NCBI RefSeq assembly: GCF_003402235.1
Contig: NZ_QEWO01000001.1
Span: 1,240,001-1,304,000, forward strand
DNA from: Parahaliea mediterranea
Lineage (GTDB): Bacteria > Pseudomonadota > Gammaproteobacteria > Pseudomonadales > Halieaceae
Direction: 5' to 3'
Length of the DNA: 64,000 nucleotides
Within the stretch, counting starts at the first letter, position 1; each line of letters begins with the position of its first letter. A program made the translations under genes and the position numbers. Shown here in pieces: positions 15,461-20,416 of the stretch. The notes beneath the pieces are model-generated. The model had not been told where the DNA came from and ran no database searches. It saw nothing but the letters and a program-made list of their open reading frames with translations.

Positions 15461-17101
15461 ATGCCCCGCCGATTTACACGCACAGAACGGTTTTTCTCGC
15501 TGTTCACCATCCTGCGGCCGGGTGAGGGCTATGCCGCCAAGCGTCTGTGCCTGCAGTCGTTTGCCATCATGTTCGCCTACTACCTGCTGAAAGTCATCCG
15601 CGAACCGATGATCCTGGCGGAGGGCTCGGCGGAACTGAAAACCTACTCCACCGCCGTGCAGGCCGTGCTGCTGATGCTGATTGTGCCGCTGTTCGCCGCC
15701 GTCTACCGTCGGGTGCGCGACAGTGGCGAAAAACACTTTCTTTACCGCAGCACGATGCTGTTTTTCGCCCTCAACCTGCTGCTGTTTGCCGCCGCCTGGA
15801 GCGCCAGCCTCGGCGTTGCGGTTGCCTTCTATGTGTGGCTCGGCATTGCCTCGGTGATGATGCTGGCGGTGTTCTGGGCCTTCGCGGCAGACCTGTTCAA
15901 CCTGCGCTCCGGCCAGCGCATCTTCCCGCTGATTGCCGCCGCCGGCGCCCTGGGAGCCCTGATCGGCTCCGGCGTTTCGGCCGACGTGGACGGGCACATC
16001 GGCCACGGCGGGGTGATGCTGCTGGCGGCTTTGCTGCTGTTGCTGGCGGCGGGGCTGGCCGGCGCCACCGGCCACCTGGTGCCCCAAGGCTCTGCCGCCA
16101 TCGCCGACATTCAGCCGGCGCCCAGCCCCGCCTATCCACTGGCGCAGGGGTTTCTGGTGGTGTGGAACAGCGCCACCCTGCGCCTGATAGCGGCGCTGGT
16201 GATTCTGTTGAACCTGATCAACACCAACGGCGAGTACATCCTCGCCAGCTTTGTCACCGAACACAGCCGCACCCTCGCCCCCCGCGAGGCGGATGACTAC
16301 CTGACCACCTTCTACGCTCGCTACCTGTTCCTCACCACCGCCCTCGGCTTTCTGATCCAGCTTTTTCTGGTATCGCGCATCTATAAAAGAATCGGCATTG
16401 CCGGTGCGCTCTATGTGCTGCCGGTGCTGATGATCGCCAGCTACAGCCTGATCGCCCTGGTGCCGGTGCTGGCAGTGGTCAGGGCCGCCCTGATGCTGGA
16501 AAACAGCGTGAATTACTCGCTGGAAACCACCACCCGCCACGCCCTCTTCCTGCCGGTGCGGCGGGAGGAGAAGTACGTCGGCAAGCACACCATCGACACG
16601 TTTTTCTTCCGCCTGGGTGATGTGCTGTCGGGGGGCTTTGTCTTTCTGGCCAGTGCGCTGTTGGGCCTGGCGCTGCAGGGTTTTGTGCTGATCAACGCCC
16701 TGCTGGCAGTGGCGCTGTTACTGGTGTCCATCGGCATTGGCCGGCGCCACCGTGAGGACGCCGCCCGCAGTCTGGCCAACCACCCGCCGGTGGCCACCGA
16801 CCAGTTGGATGACATGGTCATTCCCGCCGGCAGCCTGACCCGCCTGCAACTGGCGGAGGACACCTTCATCGACCCCGACGTGGGCGACGCCCTGCGTTAT
16901 CGCGCCCAGTGCGACGACGGCGAGCGGCTTCCCCAGTGGGTCACCTTCGACAGCCTCAAGCGCCGCTTTCATTTTCACCCGCCGGACGACAGCAGCGGCC
17001 ACTTGCGCATCAAAGTGGTGGCCCGCGACTTCGACGGGCTGGAGGCGGAAGTGAGCTTTAACGTGATTTACGGCGCCGGCGTGTCGCTGGCCTCCTCGTA
17101 G
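15461..17101 (+). CDS. NTT/MFS-type transporter with C-terminal cadherin-like domain
   Basis: Membrane protein of 546 residues from the ATG at 15461, 38 bp after a TATACT -10-like element. Residues 30-435 form about 12 hydrophobic helices resembling the nucleotide-transporter-like (TLC/ADP:ATP antiporter) branch of the major facilitator fold: the first helix region has FAYYLLKVIREPMIL and a later segment has VRREEKYVGKHTIDTFFFRLGD. After the last helix (about 425) comes a soluble tail at about 450-540, beginning NHPPVATDQLDDMVIPAG and containing DPDVGDALRY and VVARDFDGLEAEVSF, which is the pattern of dystroglycan/cadherin-like (He_PIG/CADG) domains. Such a tail on a transporter is unusual. 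The substrate is unknown; the convergent neighbour is a paralogue. Confidence 0.8.
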   Translation: MPRRFTRTERFFSLFTILRPGEGYAAKRLCLQSFAIMFAYYLLKVIREPMILAEGSAELKTYSTAVQAVLLMLIVPLFAAVYRRVRDSGEKHFLYRSTMLFFALNLLLFAAAWSASLGVAVAFYVWLGIASVMMLAVFWAFAADLFNLRSGQRIFPLIAAAGALGALIGSGVSADVDGHIGHGGVMLLAALLLLLAAGLAGATGHLVPQGSAAIADIQPAPSPAYPLAQGFLVVWNSATLRLIAALVILLNLINTNGEYILASFVTEHSRTLAPREADDYLTTFYARYLFLTTALGFLIQLFLVSRIYKRIGIAGALYVLPVLMIASYSLIALVPVLAVVRAALMLENSVNYSLETTTRHALFLPVRREEKYVGKHTIDTFFFRLGDVLSGGFVFLASALLGLALQGFVLINALLAVALLLVSIGIGRRHREDAARSLANHPPVATDQLDDMVIPAGSLTRLQLAEDTFIDPDVGDALRYRAQCDDGERLPQWVTFDSLKRRFHFHPPDDSSGHLRIKVVARDFDGLEAEVSFNVIYGAGVSLASS

Positions 17102-18447
17102 TCACGGAACACACGGCCGGCGTAGCGCGCCGCCGCTACCCACACCACCAGCAGGAGCAACGTCACCAGGCTCAGGTAGCGCAGGCTGTTGAAATCGCCA
17201 AAGGCGTAGGTCAGGCCCAGGCTGATGAGCACCGCCACCGCCTTGGCAAAGCGCTGCACAAACATATCGATAAAGGCCTTGGCCCGGTACTTCTCCGCCG
17301 GCGTGGTGGGCACGTACAGGGCCTCCTTGGCGGACTGGTTGATGGAGTAGCTGAAGCCGTTATCCGCCGTGTTCAGCAGGCTGCCCACCCACAGCGCCGG
17401 GAACACCAGAAAGGCCGCCGACCCCATGGCAATGGTGCAGGGCAGCACCAGCAGCGCCAGCCCCACGCCAAAGCGCGACATCACCAGCCCGGTGAGGAAC
17501 AGCTGCACCAGCAGCGACACCCAGTTGGTAATGGAGAACACCAGGGCAAACTGGGCGCCAATGGCCGGGCCGCTGAGGTAGTGGGCCACCGTCGCGGTGA
17601 ACTGGAAATCCACAATGGTGGAGATAACCTCGTACAGCCCCACAATGGCCGCCACCGCCATCAGGTAGCGGGAGCGAAACACCAGGGCCGCCCCTTCGGT
17701 GGCCGGGCCGTGCCGCCGGGTTCTTGGTTTAGGCTCGGGCGCGGGCTGAGTCTTTGACCGAGCCTGGGCCGGCCGTGCCGGCTCGCTCGCCGCGGCCGGC
17801 ACCTGTACATAGCGCCCGGCCACCGCGGCCGCCACCACCATCAGCACCGCCAGCACGGCGCAAATGCCAAGCCACCCTGGATAGGAAAAGTTGTCGATGT
17901 TGACCCGCACAATGGTGGAACCAAACACCCCGCCAGCCACCCCCCCGAGGCCCACCAGGCCATAGAGGCGGCGGGCCGTCTCCGGGTAGACGGCATCATT
18001 GAGGAAGGCGAAAAAGGTCGCCACCATCAGGGTGCTGAACAAATCGCCGAACAGATAGAAGCTCCACACCGTGCCATCGCCAAGGTGCGACAGCCAGCGA
18101 CCGAACAGTGCGTAGCACAGCAGGAAGAAGCCGCAGAACACAAAACTCAGGCGCTCGCGCCGCAGGTGCCGGCTGAGGGCACTGAACACCACCACCGCCA
18201 CAAAGGCCACCACCATGTTGAGCACCTTGGCCAGCAGTTCCGCCTGGGCGGCGCTGAAGTTCATCCCCAGCAGACTGAAACCGCTGGCGTCGTAGTACTC
18301 GATAAACAGGCCCTTCTTCAGGGGCTTGAGAATCCAGAAACTGGTGATGACCAGAAAAAAGTAACTCAGCATGGCAAGCGCCAGAGGCCACTCGCCGCGG
18401 CGCACGTCCATAAAGGCCTGCAGGGGATGGGTCATGGCGTCCTTCAT
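17068..18447 (-). CDS. NTT/MFS-type transporter, paralogue of the convergent neighbour
   Basis: Polytopic membrane protein of 459 residues with about 12 hydrophobic segments. Signature segments include FFLVITSFWILKPLKKGLF in the first helix and TTPAEKYRAKAFIDMFVQRF near the end, the latter equivalent to the EEKYVGKHTIDTFFFR segment of the plus-strand gene, so the two are diverged relatives in the NTT-like branch. A Pro/Lys/Arg-rich cytoplasmic loop (about residues 220-245) joins the two halves. Its 3' end overlaps the convergent paralogue by 34 bp. It could exchange nucleotides or related anions, but similar proteins in free-living bacteria lack assigned substrates. Confidence 0.8.
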   Translation of the reverse strand: MKDAMTHPLQAFMDVRRGEWPLALAMLSYFFLVITSFWILKPLKKGLFIEYYDASGFSLLGMNFSAAQAELLAKVLNMVVAFVAVVVFSALSRHLRRERLSFVFCGFFLLCYALFGRWLSHLGDGTVWSFYLFGDLFSTLMVATFFAFLNDAVYPETARRLYGLVGLGGVAGGVFGSTIVRVNIDNFSYPGWLGICAVLAVLMVVAAAVAGRYVQVPAAASEPARPAQARSKTQPAPEPKPRTRRHGPATEGAALVFRSRYLMAVAAIVGLYEVISTIVDFQFTATVAHYLSGPAIGAQFALVFSITNWVSLLVQLFLTGLVMSRFGVGLALLVLPCTIAMGSAAFLVFPALWVGSLLNTADNGFSYSINQSAKEALYVPTTPAEKYRAKAFIDMFVQRFAKAVAVLISLGLTYAFGDFNSLRYLSLVTLLLLVVWVAAARYAGRVFRDYEEASDTPAP

Positions 18448-18499: not shown

Positions 18500-20416
18500 T
18501 CAGGACGGGTCGGCGGTGCGCACCGCCTCTTTCACGATCAAATCGCGGCGCTTGAGAATGGCCTCGATCTGGCGTGGGTGAAGATACGCCCCCAACTCCG
18601 CCTGCAGTTGCTCGGCAGTCAGCGCCTGCAGGCGCTGGATCAGCAGATCCGACACCCGCAGATCCACTTTGCGATACTGTTTGGGCCGCTTGTCGCGCGA
18701 GCGGAAGGCCAGGCTGTGGTCGATGAAGCGCAGCATGTAGCCGTCCTTGGTCCACAGGATATTGGTGAGATTGCGGTCATCGTTGTGAATCAGAATGTCG
18801 AACACAAAGCGCAGACGGTACTGCTCGGACTGTTGGCAATAGCTGTTAAAGGGCAGCTTTTGCTCCAGCCGGTCGCGTTCGTTGATGGTATTGTCGGCCC
18901 AGTCAGACAGGGCGCCCTCGGTACCTTCCACCTGGCCGATCACCGCGGTGGGCACCAGGTTCAAACCCAGCAGGCGGTCCAGCTTGTAGGCCGCCACATC
19001 GTACACGTAGCGGTCGCTGTCGTCGGCGGTGCGAATACTGTAGTGGGTTTTGTTCTGCAGGCCGGGGTCGGTATCTTCGTACTTAAAAACGGCATCGTTG
19101 CTTTTGCCGTCCTGCTCCTGGGTTACCCGCTTGGGCTTGGTGATGCCGGTGCCAATGTCCTCCACCGCCACCACCGGCGCGCTCTGCATGAACTGCTCCA
19201 GTTCGGCATCGCTCATGCCCGACAGTTCCATGGCCAGGTCGCGCTGCTCTGGCACCGGCGCGGCCCGCTGCGGCTCGCCCAGGTAATGCACGAACTGCTC
19301 GCCACCCTCGCTCACCAGGGCCGACGCCCGACCCTTGTAAACGCTGTTGAGCATGCCGGTATCCAGGCGCAGCACCTTGCCATCCATGCGCGACTGGACC
19401 TCACCGTGGGTCGGGGTATGGCCGATCACCAGCTGCTGTGCGCCCACGTTTTTCAGGAACACCTCGGTGTTCCAGCTTTCGGCGTAGGGATGACACAGGG
19501 CAGAGCCCCGGTACCAGTTGAGGCTGTCGTCACTGAATACAAAGGCGGTCTGGGCGTCGAACACGGCCTGTAGCGGGTCAAACCAGTCGGCACGGGTGCG
19601 CGGGTTGGCGGCGGCAAATTCCTCGGCGCGGGCGTTCAGGTAGGTCAGCCGGTCGTGGTAGCCCACGTGCCAGGGCATCACCCCGGCGGCGCGCAGCTTG
19701 CCCATGTTGTCGAGAAAGTCGCGCAGCTCGCTCAGCATTTTTTCATTGAGCGCTTCCAGGGAATTGAACGCCGGGTTTTTGGCGATGCCCCCGTGCATGT
19801 ACACGCTGTCGTTAACCTTCACCGCAAACTGCTGCTGCAGCAGCCAGTCGCCGATTGCGCCACCGGGCGAGAAGGCCTTGCGCAGGGCCACATAGCCGGG
19901 GGGATACTGCTGCTCGAATACGGCTCGCACCTCTGCCTCGTCGCCACCGGGGTTGACCTTGCGGTAGTCCCGCCACAGGGCCTCCCGCTCGGCGGGGCTT
20001 TCATCGGCGGCGAAGGCGGCGTATTCCTCCGCAGACACGTAACGCAGGTCACCGGTCATCACCATCACTTCGTGATTGCCCAGGGTCAGGTGCACATCAC
20101 CGCCGGCGGCGCGGGCCTGCTGTTGCAGCTGCATCAGCAACTCAACCACCTGCCGTGAACCCGGCCCCCGATCCACTAGATCGCCGGTGGATACCAGGTG
20201 GGCGCCACCGCCGATCCAGCGGTTCTGCTGGTCGATCACCTGCACTTCTCGCAGCAGGCGAGTCCAGTCGTCGTAGGCGCCATGCACATCGGCAAAGGCA
20301 ACCACCCGGCTGTCGGTCTCGAAGGTGTAGTCCGGCGCGGCCTGGGCGGTGGCCGCCAGCAGGCCGGCCAGCCCCAACAGGGCGGTGATAATGCCGATTC
20401 GCTTGCCTTTCAACAC
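18500..20416 (-). CDS. Exported PPP-type phosphatase fused to a Fam20C/HipA-like kinase domain
   Basis: Protein of 638 residues with a signal peptide (basic start, hydrophobic core to about residue 26, ending AQAA). Residues 35-380 are a metallophosphatase of the PPP kind, with every metal or catalytic motif visible: DVHG (43-46), GDLVDRG (78-84), GNHE (113-116), His208 in MHGG and His333 in GHTP. Residues 415-630 look like a Fam20C/HipA/PI3K-type atypical kinase: a basic glycine-containing strand (GTGITKPKRV), Lys445 in AVFK, the family phrase DVAAYKLDRLLGLNLVP (473-489), a catalytic-loop candidate HNDDRNLTN (544-552) and metal-site Asp566 in FIDHSLAF. The kinase half is my inference from motif order. 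If both are active it would be a periplasmic two-way phospho-enzyme. It lies 52 bp downstream, on the opposite side, of no obvious partner. Confidence 0.8.
   Translation of the reverse strand: MLKGKRIGIITALLGLAGLLAATAQAAPDYTFETDSRVVAFADVHGAYDDWTRLLREVQVIDQQNRWIGGGAHLVSTGDLVDRGPGSRQVVELLMQLQQQARAAGGDVHLTLGNHEVMVMTGDLRYVSAEEYAAFAADESPAEREALWRDYRKVNPGGDEAEVRAVFEQQYPPGYVALRKAFSPGGAIGDWLLQQQFAVKVNDSVYMHGGIAKNPAFNSLEALNEKMLSELRDFLDNMGKLRAAGVMPWHVGYHDRLTYLNARAEEFAAANPRTRADWFDPLQAVFDAQTAFVFSDDSLNWYRGSALCHPYAESWNTEVFLKNVGAQQLVIGHTPTHGEVQSRMDGKVLRLDTGMLNSVYKGRASALVSEGGEQFVHYLGEPQRAAPVPEQRDLAMELSGMSDAELEQFMQSAPVVAVEDIGTGITKPKRVTQEQDGKSNDAVFKYEDTDPGLQNKTHYSIRTADDSDRYVYDVAAYKLDRLLGLNLVPTAVIGQVEGTEGALSDWADNTINERDRLEQKLPFNSYCQQSEQYRLRFVFDILIHNDDRNLTNILWTKDGYMLRFIDHSLAFRSRDKRPKQYRKVDLRVSDLLIQRLQALTAEQLQAELGAYLHPRQIEAILKRRDLIVKEAVRTADPS

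Follow-up and report, generated by a model that had tools for sequence, protein, structure and literature searches.

A predicted exported phosphatase–kinase fusion of Parahaliea mediterranea and its NTT-type transporter neighbours: a candidate system for phosphorylation outside the cytoplasm

Introduction

What might a bacterium do with a single polypeptide, apparently destined for the periplasm, that joins a phosphatase to a kinase fold, and how would such a kinase be supplied with ATP? This question is raised by a gene in a 64,000-nucleotide stretch of the Parahaliea mediterranea genome (contig NZ_QEWO01000001.1, positions 1,240,001 to 1,304,000; hereafter the window). A kinase acting outside the cytoplasm needs ATP there, and a review (PMC7432876, in part) calls the route of ATP from the cytosol to the periplasm unknown, one reason being that Gram-negative bacteria, to its authors' knowledge, encode no homologue of the ATP-ADP translocase. 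The initial annotation of the gene had proposed that one exported protein can both add and remove phosphate, or that one of its halves regulates the other. Here we examine the gene and its relatives through sequence, predicted folds, conservation, gene neighbourhood and co-occurrence. The earlier picture, which was confined to the protein, is changed by adjoining transporter genes and by a three-gene form found in other phyla. On balance, and with modest confidence, we favour a reading in which this single chain would act in the periplasm as both writer and eraser of phosphate, with ATP delivered by the neighbouring transporter.

Results and discussion

The gene occupies positions 18500..20416 of the window, on the minus strand, and reads through 638 amino acids with no internal stop. 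It opens with a GTG codon, four bases 5' of which stands an AGGGGAG stretch, and is present as a single copy in the 5.09-Mb, 29-contig host genome. The open reading frame (ORF), its homologues and their alignment together mark the product as a fusion, predicted to be exported, of a Shewanella-like PPP phosphatase (Shelph) and a Fam20C-like kinase. All of the motifs quoted in the initial annotation were located in the translation, namely ADVHG (residues 42-46), GDLVDRG, GNHE, MHGG and GHTP in the N-terminal half and AVFK (K445), AAYKLDRLLGLNLVP, HNDDRNLTN (544-552) and IDHSLAF (565-571) in the C-terminal half. Its observation of two domains in one chain also proved real: both halves stand together in 23 named loci (L021-L043) and, counting the genome from which the window comes, in 15 of 58 genomes of a 'relatives' set. 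The nearest named relatives belong to three Parahaliea species (75, 76 and 87 % identity) of the family Halieaceae. The window protein and those of the 23 loci were aligned as a family of 24 members, four further sequences being left out, and the catalytic residues are invariant throughout. This conservation among relatives rules out a chance or mis-framed ORF.

The N-terminus, MLKGKRIGIITALLGLAGLLAATAQA-A, resembles a Sec-type signal peptide with an AxA site (residues 1-26; 20339..20416, minus strand), as judged by eye, and hydrophobic, signal-like N-termini were likewise seen by eye across the aligned members. From these N-termini we infer export of the fusion protein to the periplasm.

By its motifs, sequence and fold, the N-terminal half (residues about 37-385; 19262..20308, minus strand) is a Shelph-group PPP phosphatase with predicted enzyme activity. 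It matches the calcineurin-like phosphatase family Metallophos (Pfam PF00149) with E 5.1e-12, a sequence comparison with solved structures puts the Shewanella phosphatases 1v73, 2z72 and 2zbm nearest (about 1e-31), and a model of the full-length protein (pLDDT 81.6, pTM 0.83) found Shewanella phosphatase structures as its best fold matches (3e-20). The sections of PMC535813 that deal with these enzymes give GDXHG, GDXXDRG and GNH(E/D) as the defining Shelph motifs, and a motif (I/L/V)D(S/T)G together with an insert between GNHE and H(A/G)G as features of bacterial PPP proteins. The fusion carries GDLVDRG and GNHE, and the first glycine of GDXHG is alanine here (ADVHG) and alanine or glycine in relatives. 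LDTG is present at residues 351-354, and an insert of about 90 residues separates GNHE (113-116) from HGG (208-210). Residues D43, H45, D79, R83, N114, H115, H208 and H333, the metal residues among them, are each conserved in 24/24 members.

The C-terminal half (residues about 410-638; 18503..19189, minus strand), for which a Fam20C/HipA/PI3K-like fold had been suggested from motif order, was placed using Pfam, TIGR03843, an AlphaFold model and Foldseek searches of that model. Modelled alone (243 amino acids, alignment of 24 rows), it gave a structure of middling confidence (pLDDT 74.8, pTM 0.77), the nine best PDB matches of which were all Fam20-type kinases (E 4.1e-6 to 1.6e-4, probability 1.00; 4.6e-4 at most over all Fam20-type rows), followed by PI4KII-alpha (4.6e-4), MavQ (2.5e-3), CtkA (5.4e-3) and HipA (3.5e-2). 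The Fam20-type matches had TM scores by query of 0.49-0.58 with a large rmsd (8.5-11.5), and the catalytic loop fell below pLDDT 50 at residues 546-553 of this model and 545-571 of the full-length one. As far as prediction goes, these matches support the suggested fold, and we describe the half as a predicted Fam20C/PI4K/HipA-type kinase fold. A fold of this kind might instead use ATP for a different kind of transfer, AMPylation or glutamylation for instance, which the PPP half would then reverse. Kinase-fold proteins with such activities exist, as parts of the KINtaro paper describe (PMC10870513), and the N-lobe lysine position varies among relatives of the fusion; the nearest solved folds, however, are mostly phosphotransferases, and we hold this alternative to be very improbable.

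Judged by family membership, the kinase half is not a Fam20 protein: Fam20C is absent among the Pfam matches of the fusion at E<=1, and the four conserved disulfides that Fam20 kinases carry, according to the relevant part of PMC5865150, have no counterpart in a kinase half with one cysteine. The best sequence-family matches were instead HipA_2 (PF20613; E 3.9e-6, 26.7 bits against a cut-off of 27, residues 533-577 only) and the SCO1664 family (TIGR03843; 3.1e-9, 36.5 bits against a cut-off of 172.4); as both curated cut-offs are missed, assignment as a HipA-type toxin was rejected. Assignment as a known phage-defence protein was also rejected, the only PADLOC match being a weak local one to PDC-M66A (3e-5, residues 530-573; window 18698-18829), presumably via the shared kinase motif. 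A viral structure library yielded a single match under 1e-3, to a phage protein at 5.8e-4.

The putative active site of the kinase half is invariant in the fusion family. K445, the putative ATP lysine of AVFK (19082..19084), D547, the putative catalytic aspartate of HNDDRNLTN (18776..18778), and the putative metal ligands N552 (18761..18763) and D566 of IDHSLAF (18719..18721), all on the minus strand, are each present in 24/24 members. In 50 kinase domains from Acidobacteriota, described below, D547 and N552 are each kept in 49/50, D566 in 50/50 and K445 in 15/50. The initial annotation had made its kinase reading depend on conservation of K445, N552 and D566; this expectation was borne out for all three residues within the family and for the two metal ligands in Acidobacteriota, where the lysine failed it.

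Exactly two cysteines lie outside the signal region in 24/24 fusion members, C308 in the phosphatase half (19493..19495, minus strand) and C527 in the kinase half (18836..18838, minus strand). An inter-domain disulfide between them may staple the two halves together. In three divergent gammaproteobacterial fusions (L064:6530-8344, L065:5046-6923 and L066:4759-6810), which we regard as candidate pseudokinases, cysteines are kept in both regions as judged by eye, and none of the 50 Acidobacteriota kinase domains has a cysteine within one column of C527.

The next gene after the fusion, on the same strand and 52 nt past its stop, encodes an NTT/TLC ATP/ADP-type transporter of 459 amino acids (TLC1; 17068..18447, minus strand). 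It matches PF03219 at 2e-24 (86.7 bits, cut-off 21), and its nearest solved relative is the chloroplastic ADP,ATP carrier protein 1 (9j3j, 7.9e-15). A second TLC-type transporter (TLC2; 15461..17101, plus strand), the start codon of which we picked inside a longer ORF, matches PF03219 at 3.1e-7 (30 bits against 21) and bears a C-terminal He_PIG Ig-like domain (1.2e-6). TLC1 and TLC2 are convergent, and their 3' ends overlap by 34 bases (17068-17101). A custom profile detects a TLC gene close to the fusion in 12 of the 23 named loci, within the retrieved flanking sequence, which is short for several loci. When nine transporters called in this way across all groups were rechecked with Pfam, six passed PF03219.

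The substrate site of NTT transporters carries the charges K, E, E, K, which we take to be K155, E245, E385 and K527 of AtNTT1; three of the four fit the 9j3j alignment. At these sites TLC1 has K44 (or K45), D135, D280 and K402, a conservative set, and three relatives also have K, D, D, K. Gemmatimonadota transporters have R, D, D and K in 13, 14, 15 and 15 of 15 rows, and the ten Acidobacteriota rows have R at the first site in 8, an acidic residue at the third in 7 and K at the fourth in 3. On this comparison TLC1 would be a better candidate for carrying ATP than the TLC2 type.

The pairing of kinase and transporter extends beyond the window. The kinase half was found in 31/140 Halieaceae genomes, including one fragment (G024) and one degenerate copy (G357), and PF03219 in 37/140, 35 of them over cut-off; many of the TLC matches are close to the limit of detection, and some transporters may have been missed. 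PF03219 was present in 27/31 kinase genomes vs 10/109 others (Fisher p 1e-16), and the same family search matched 0/14 control genomes. A wider spread in Pseudomonadota was unsupported: a mixed profile (one Acidobacteriota and seven Halieaceae rows) run over 378 Pseudomonadota genomes returned the own genome and three short, weak matches, and a class-level search returned 2/274 genomes, the own genome and G223. When neighbours were clustered, those in Halieaceae proved to be core genes and those in other groups fell into scattered families; neither a third recurrent partner nor a substrate candidate was among them, and promoter and terminator scans gave nothing beyond shuffled sequences.

In Acidobacteriota the parts occur mostly as separate genes. 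On a Terriglobia contig reached through its Shelph (L044), genes for a TLC-HEAT protein, a kinase with a signal-like N-terminus and a divergent Shelph stand side by side. The kinase was found in 47/247 Acidobacteriota genomes, with one to seven separate kinase genes per genome, and 47/50 kinase ORFs have a hydrophobic stretch near the start, as judged by hydropathy only. PF03219 is present in 76/247 genomes (74 over cut-off), comprising 47/47 kinase genomes vs 29/200 others (p 8e-31). Shelph-profile matches at E<=1e-3 occur in 89/247 genomes, 42/47 with the kinase vs 47/200 without (p 4e-17), many of the weak ones probably being other PPPs; at E<1e-15, a threshold chosen afterwards, the counts are 41/47 vs 8/200 (p 3e-32). 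By start coordinates, a kinase lies within 5 kb of a Shelph in 29 genomes and of a TLC gene in 19.

A kinase that is nearly always accompanied by TLC, together with a TLC that is often found without the kinase, fits a transporter that supplies the kinase. The same genes might also be imagined as a set for scavenging phosphate or nucleotides, in which phosphoesters outside the cell are the substrate of the phosphatase, nucleotides enter through TLC as in intracellular bacteria, and the kinase half is an accessory. The characterised NTTs set out in parts of PMC5381601 come from parasites and plastids and serve nucleotide and ATP uptake. Scavenging would leave unexplained, however, why the kinase predicts TLC (47/47) while 29/76 TLC genomes are without a kinase, and also why the kinase active site is conserved, and we consider it rather improbable.

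The 43 higher-scoring Acidobacteriota loci (L044, L107-L148) were inspected individually. Shelph-kinase fusions were seen in five (L109, L112, L114, L133 and L134), a separate Shelph in nine and no Shelph in the flanks of 29; TLC was present in 9/43, in one case 5 kb distant (L112). A kinase-domain tree requires three changes of the 'fused' label, and the split at its midpoint root is weak (82/43). More than one gain of the fusion, or more than one separation, may therefore have occurred. Two of the fusions have a degenerate phosphatase and intact kinase motifs: L109:4920-6623 reads GDLDGD, GNALPTRG and GGHE, and L114:6561-8471 reads GGVHG, GDLLGHG and GQEE with no Metallophos match. A further Acidobacteriota locus, L148:5010-10819, holds three separate kinase genes in tandem, a TLC gene and a fourth, kinase-like gene whose DRN motif has decayed; a Shelph and another TLC gene come next.

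A third lineage, Gemmatimonadota, was reached through two Shelph loci (L047 and L057), in which a TLC-HEAT-cNMP gene (TLC 44.5 and 61.2 bits, respectively) is followed by an exported-looking protein of 325-331 amino acids and then by the Shelph. This protein has no Pfam family over cut-off and carries the motifs QMKYAP, RYEL, HNDSNEGNF and VDNGVAF. A first profile comparison with these two kinases was weak (hhalign probability 17, E 0.0015). The exported-looking kinase was then found at 18 places in 17/200 Gemmatimonadota genomes, and over 19 loci (L047, L057, L171-L187; transporters called by the custom profile) the profile aligned with the Halieaceae/Acidobacteriota kinases at probability 98.3 and E 2e-14, with motifs in register. 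The D.N.GN motif and the following DN are present in 19/19. Transporter, kinase and Shelph stand together in 13/19 loci, or 11/17 without the two Shelph-derived ones; of the remaining loci, one has kinase and Shelph, two have kinase and transporter and three have the kinase alone (one of these on a 4-kb contig). At L057:3363-4663, genes for a response regulator and a histidine kinase, a possible controller, lie between the TLC-HEAT-cNMP gene and that of the exported-looking kinase.

Shelph proteins with other partners were seen in Bacteroidota. A Saprospiraceae Shelph of 681 amino acids (L046:5279-7324) has a weak C-terminal match to CotH kinases (PF08757, E 0.004, under cut-off) and is possibly an independent exported phosphatase-kinase fusion. 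Two further Bacteroidota Shelphs (L056:5221-6828 and L058:5227-6858) are fused to N-terminal ankyrin repeats.

Taken across these phyla, the gene set may form a dedicated extracytoplasmic phosphorylation system made of an exported Fam20C-like kinase, an exported Shelph and a transporter of NTT type that would move ATP outward over the inner membrane to fuel it. We put this broader proposal forward tentatively, at slightly under even chances.

Several observations weigh against a writer and eraser fed by TLC. On the transporter side, 11/23 named fusion loci have no TLC gene in the fetched flanks (by the custom profile, with several flanks short). In five of these (L024, L026, L033, L041 and L043) the fusion is still flanked, as in the window, by genes for a DEAD helicase and a quinone oxidoreductase, so the setting there is similar save for the absence of TLC. 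PF03219 was not found in 4/31 Halieaceae kinase genomes (G010, G336, G417 and G024, the last with a kinase fragment only). In 20/24 Halieaceae TLC rows and in TLC2 the K, E, E, K sites read R, G, E or D, D (R, G, E, D in TLC2 itself), and 0/10 Acidobacteriota rows have an acidic residue at the second site. Among the rechecked transporters, L171 (20.5 bits) and L132 (16.7) fall below the PF03219 cut-off of 21, and that of L186 matches only MFS, HEAT and cNMP families. Outside the well-studied NTT clade, moreover, one member carries NAD and one moved no nucleotide, as parts of PMC5381601 report. The co-occurrence tests also treat genomes as independent though they are related by ancestry; the diversity of gene orders carries more weight as evidence.

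On the kinase side, position 445 in the 50 Acidobacteriota domains is occupied by lysine in 15, glutamine in 20 and arginine in 15, and the divergent fusions L064, L065 and L066 retain the phosphatase motifs without the DRN..N kinase motif, L066 having a TLC gene nearby all the same. These observations speak for a rival reading that takes up the second option of the initial annotation, regulation of one half by the other. The kinase-fold half would be a nucleotide sensor and not an enzyme: by binding ATP or ADP that TLC delivers to the periplasm, it would turn the phosphatase on or off. In its favour stand Q or R at the ATP lysine in 35/50 separate or distant relatives and the loss of kinase motifs beside a retained phosphatase; the invariant cysteines, one per half, could lock the halves together. 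The invariance of D547, N552 and D566 in 24 Halieaceae proteins, nearly matched in Acidobacteriota, nevertheless argues for chemistry, L109 and L114 show the reverse decay, and separate kinase genes number up to seven per genome. Since the two decay patterns are opposite, each half can evidently persist without the chemistry of the other. We judge a regulator to be unlikely, though of some weight.

For the writer and eraser that we favour, we envisage the following steps. The Fam20C-like half would add phosphate to an extracytoplasmic substrate, which could be a protein, a glycan or a lipid, and the Shelph half would take that phosphate off again. The NTT/TLC-type transporter would bring ATP to the periplasm, probably in exchange for ADP. 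In Halieaceae kinase and phosphatase would act as one fused protein, perhaps stapled by the invariant cysteine of each half; in Acidobacteriota and Gemmatimonadota the three parts would be supplied mostly by separate genes.

If this is true, bacteria would have their own equivalent of Golgi phosphorylation, and the NTTs of free-living bacteria would gain a function. Bacteria, and not eukaryotes alone, would then count regulated phosphorylation of their envelope proteins or glycans among their traits. A conserved set that ties an exported-looking kinase to an NTT makes the questions of periplasmic ATP and of NTT function directly testable in culturable marine bacteria.

Comparison with known systems

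Our search of the open-access PMC literature, which left subscription papers and preprints aside, turned up no paper describing this gene set, nor any on a Fam20-like kinase that a bacterium exports. In the consulted portions of individual papers, FAM20 appears once in KINtaro (PMC10870513), inside a reference; 'bacteria' and 'prokaryotes' give only a reference match in PMC7948968 and none in PMC5865150; and the terms phosphatase, signal peptide and periplasm are without match in the HipA phylogeny PMC8262856. Bacterial proteins near Fam20 in sequence space have been described among Legionella effector kinases: in the portion concerned, the Legionella kinome paper regards the FAM20 cluster as specific to eukaryotes or Metazoa, although it puts four Legionella families close to FAM20/CotH (PMC9758233). 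These are not described beside Shelph or TLC genes, and it is by description only that we set them apart.

TLC1, TLC2 and their relatives belong to the same family as the NTTs of free-living bacteria, of which fused forms (NTT-HEAT and NTT-HEAT-cNBD) are said in parts of PMC5381601 to have unknown functions. Forms with HEAT and cNMP-binding domains recur here beside kinase and Shelph genes, a link to an exported kinase or phosphatase that those parts of PMC5381601 do not draw.

The phosphatase half shares its domain with Shewanella psychrophilic phosphatase I and other Shelphs by sequence, fold and LDTG. The solved Shelph proteins are phosphatases of 336-342 residues, whereas here the domain is joined to a kinase fold. 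Kinase and phosphatase activities do occur in one bacterial chain in AceK, the isocitrate dehydrogenase kinase/phosphatase, which is cytosolic and uses one active site. The fusion resembles AceK in its predicted pairing of activities and differs from it in its signal-like N-terminus and two separate domains, which are unrelated to those of AceK. HipA toxins, together with HipA_2 and SCO1664, are the best sequence-family matches of the kinase half; unlike them, the fusion has TLC and DEAD helicase genes as neighbours with no antitoxin seen, and its N-terminus is signal-like.

The nearest working analogue is provided by the Fam20 kinases, which act in the eukaryotic secretory pathway (PMC5865150, in part), together with SLC35B1, which carries ATP into the endoplasmic reticulum (PMC12267056, in part). 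They have in common with the system proposed here the closest solved fold, a signal-like N-terminus and a compartment that would need imported ATP. The bacterial set differs in that TLC comes from another transporter family and in that the kinase is fused to, or paired with, a PPP phosphatase.

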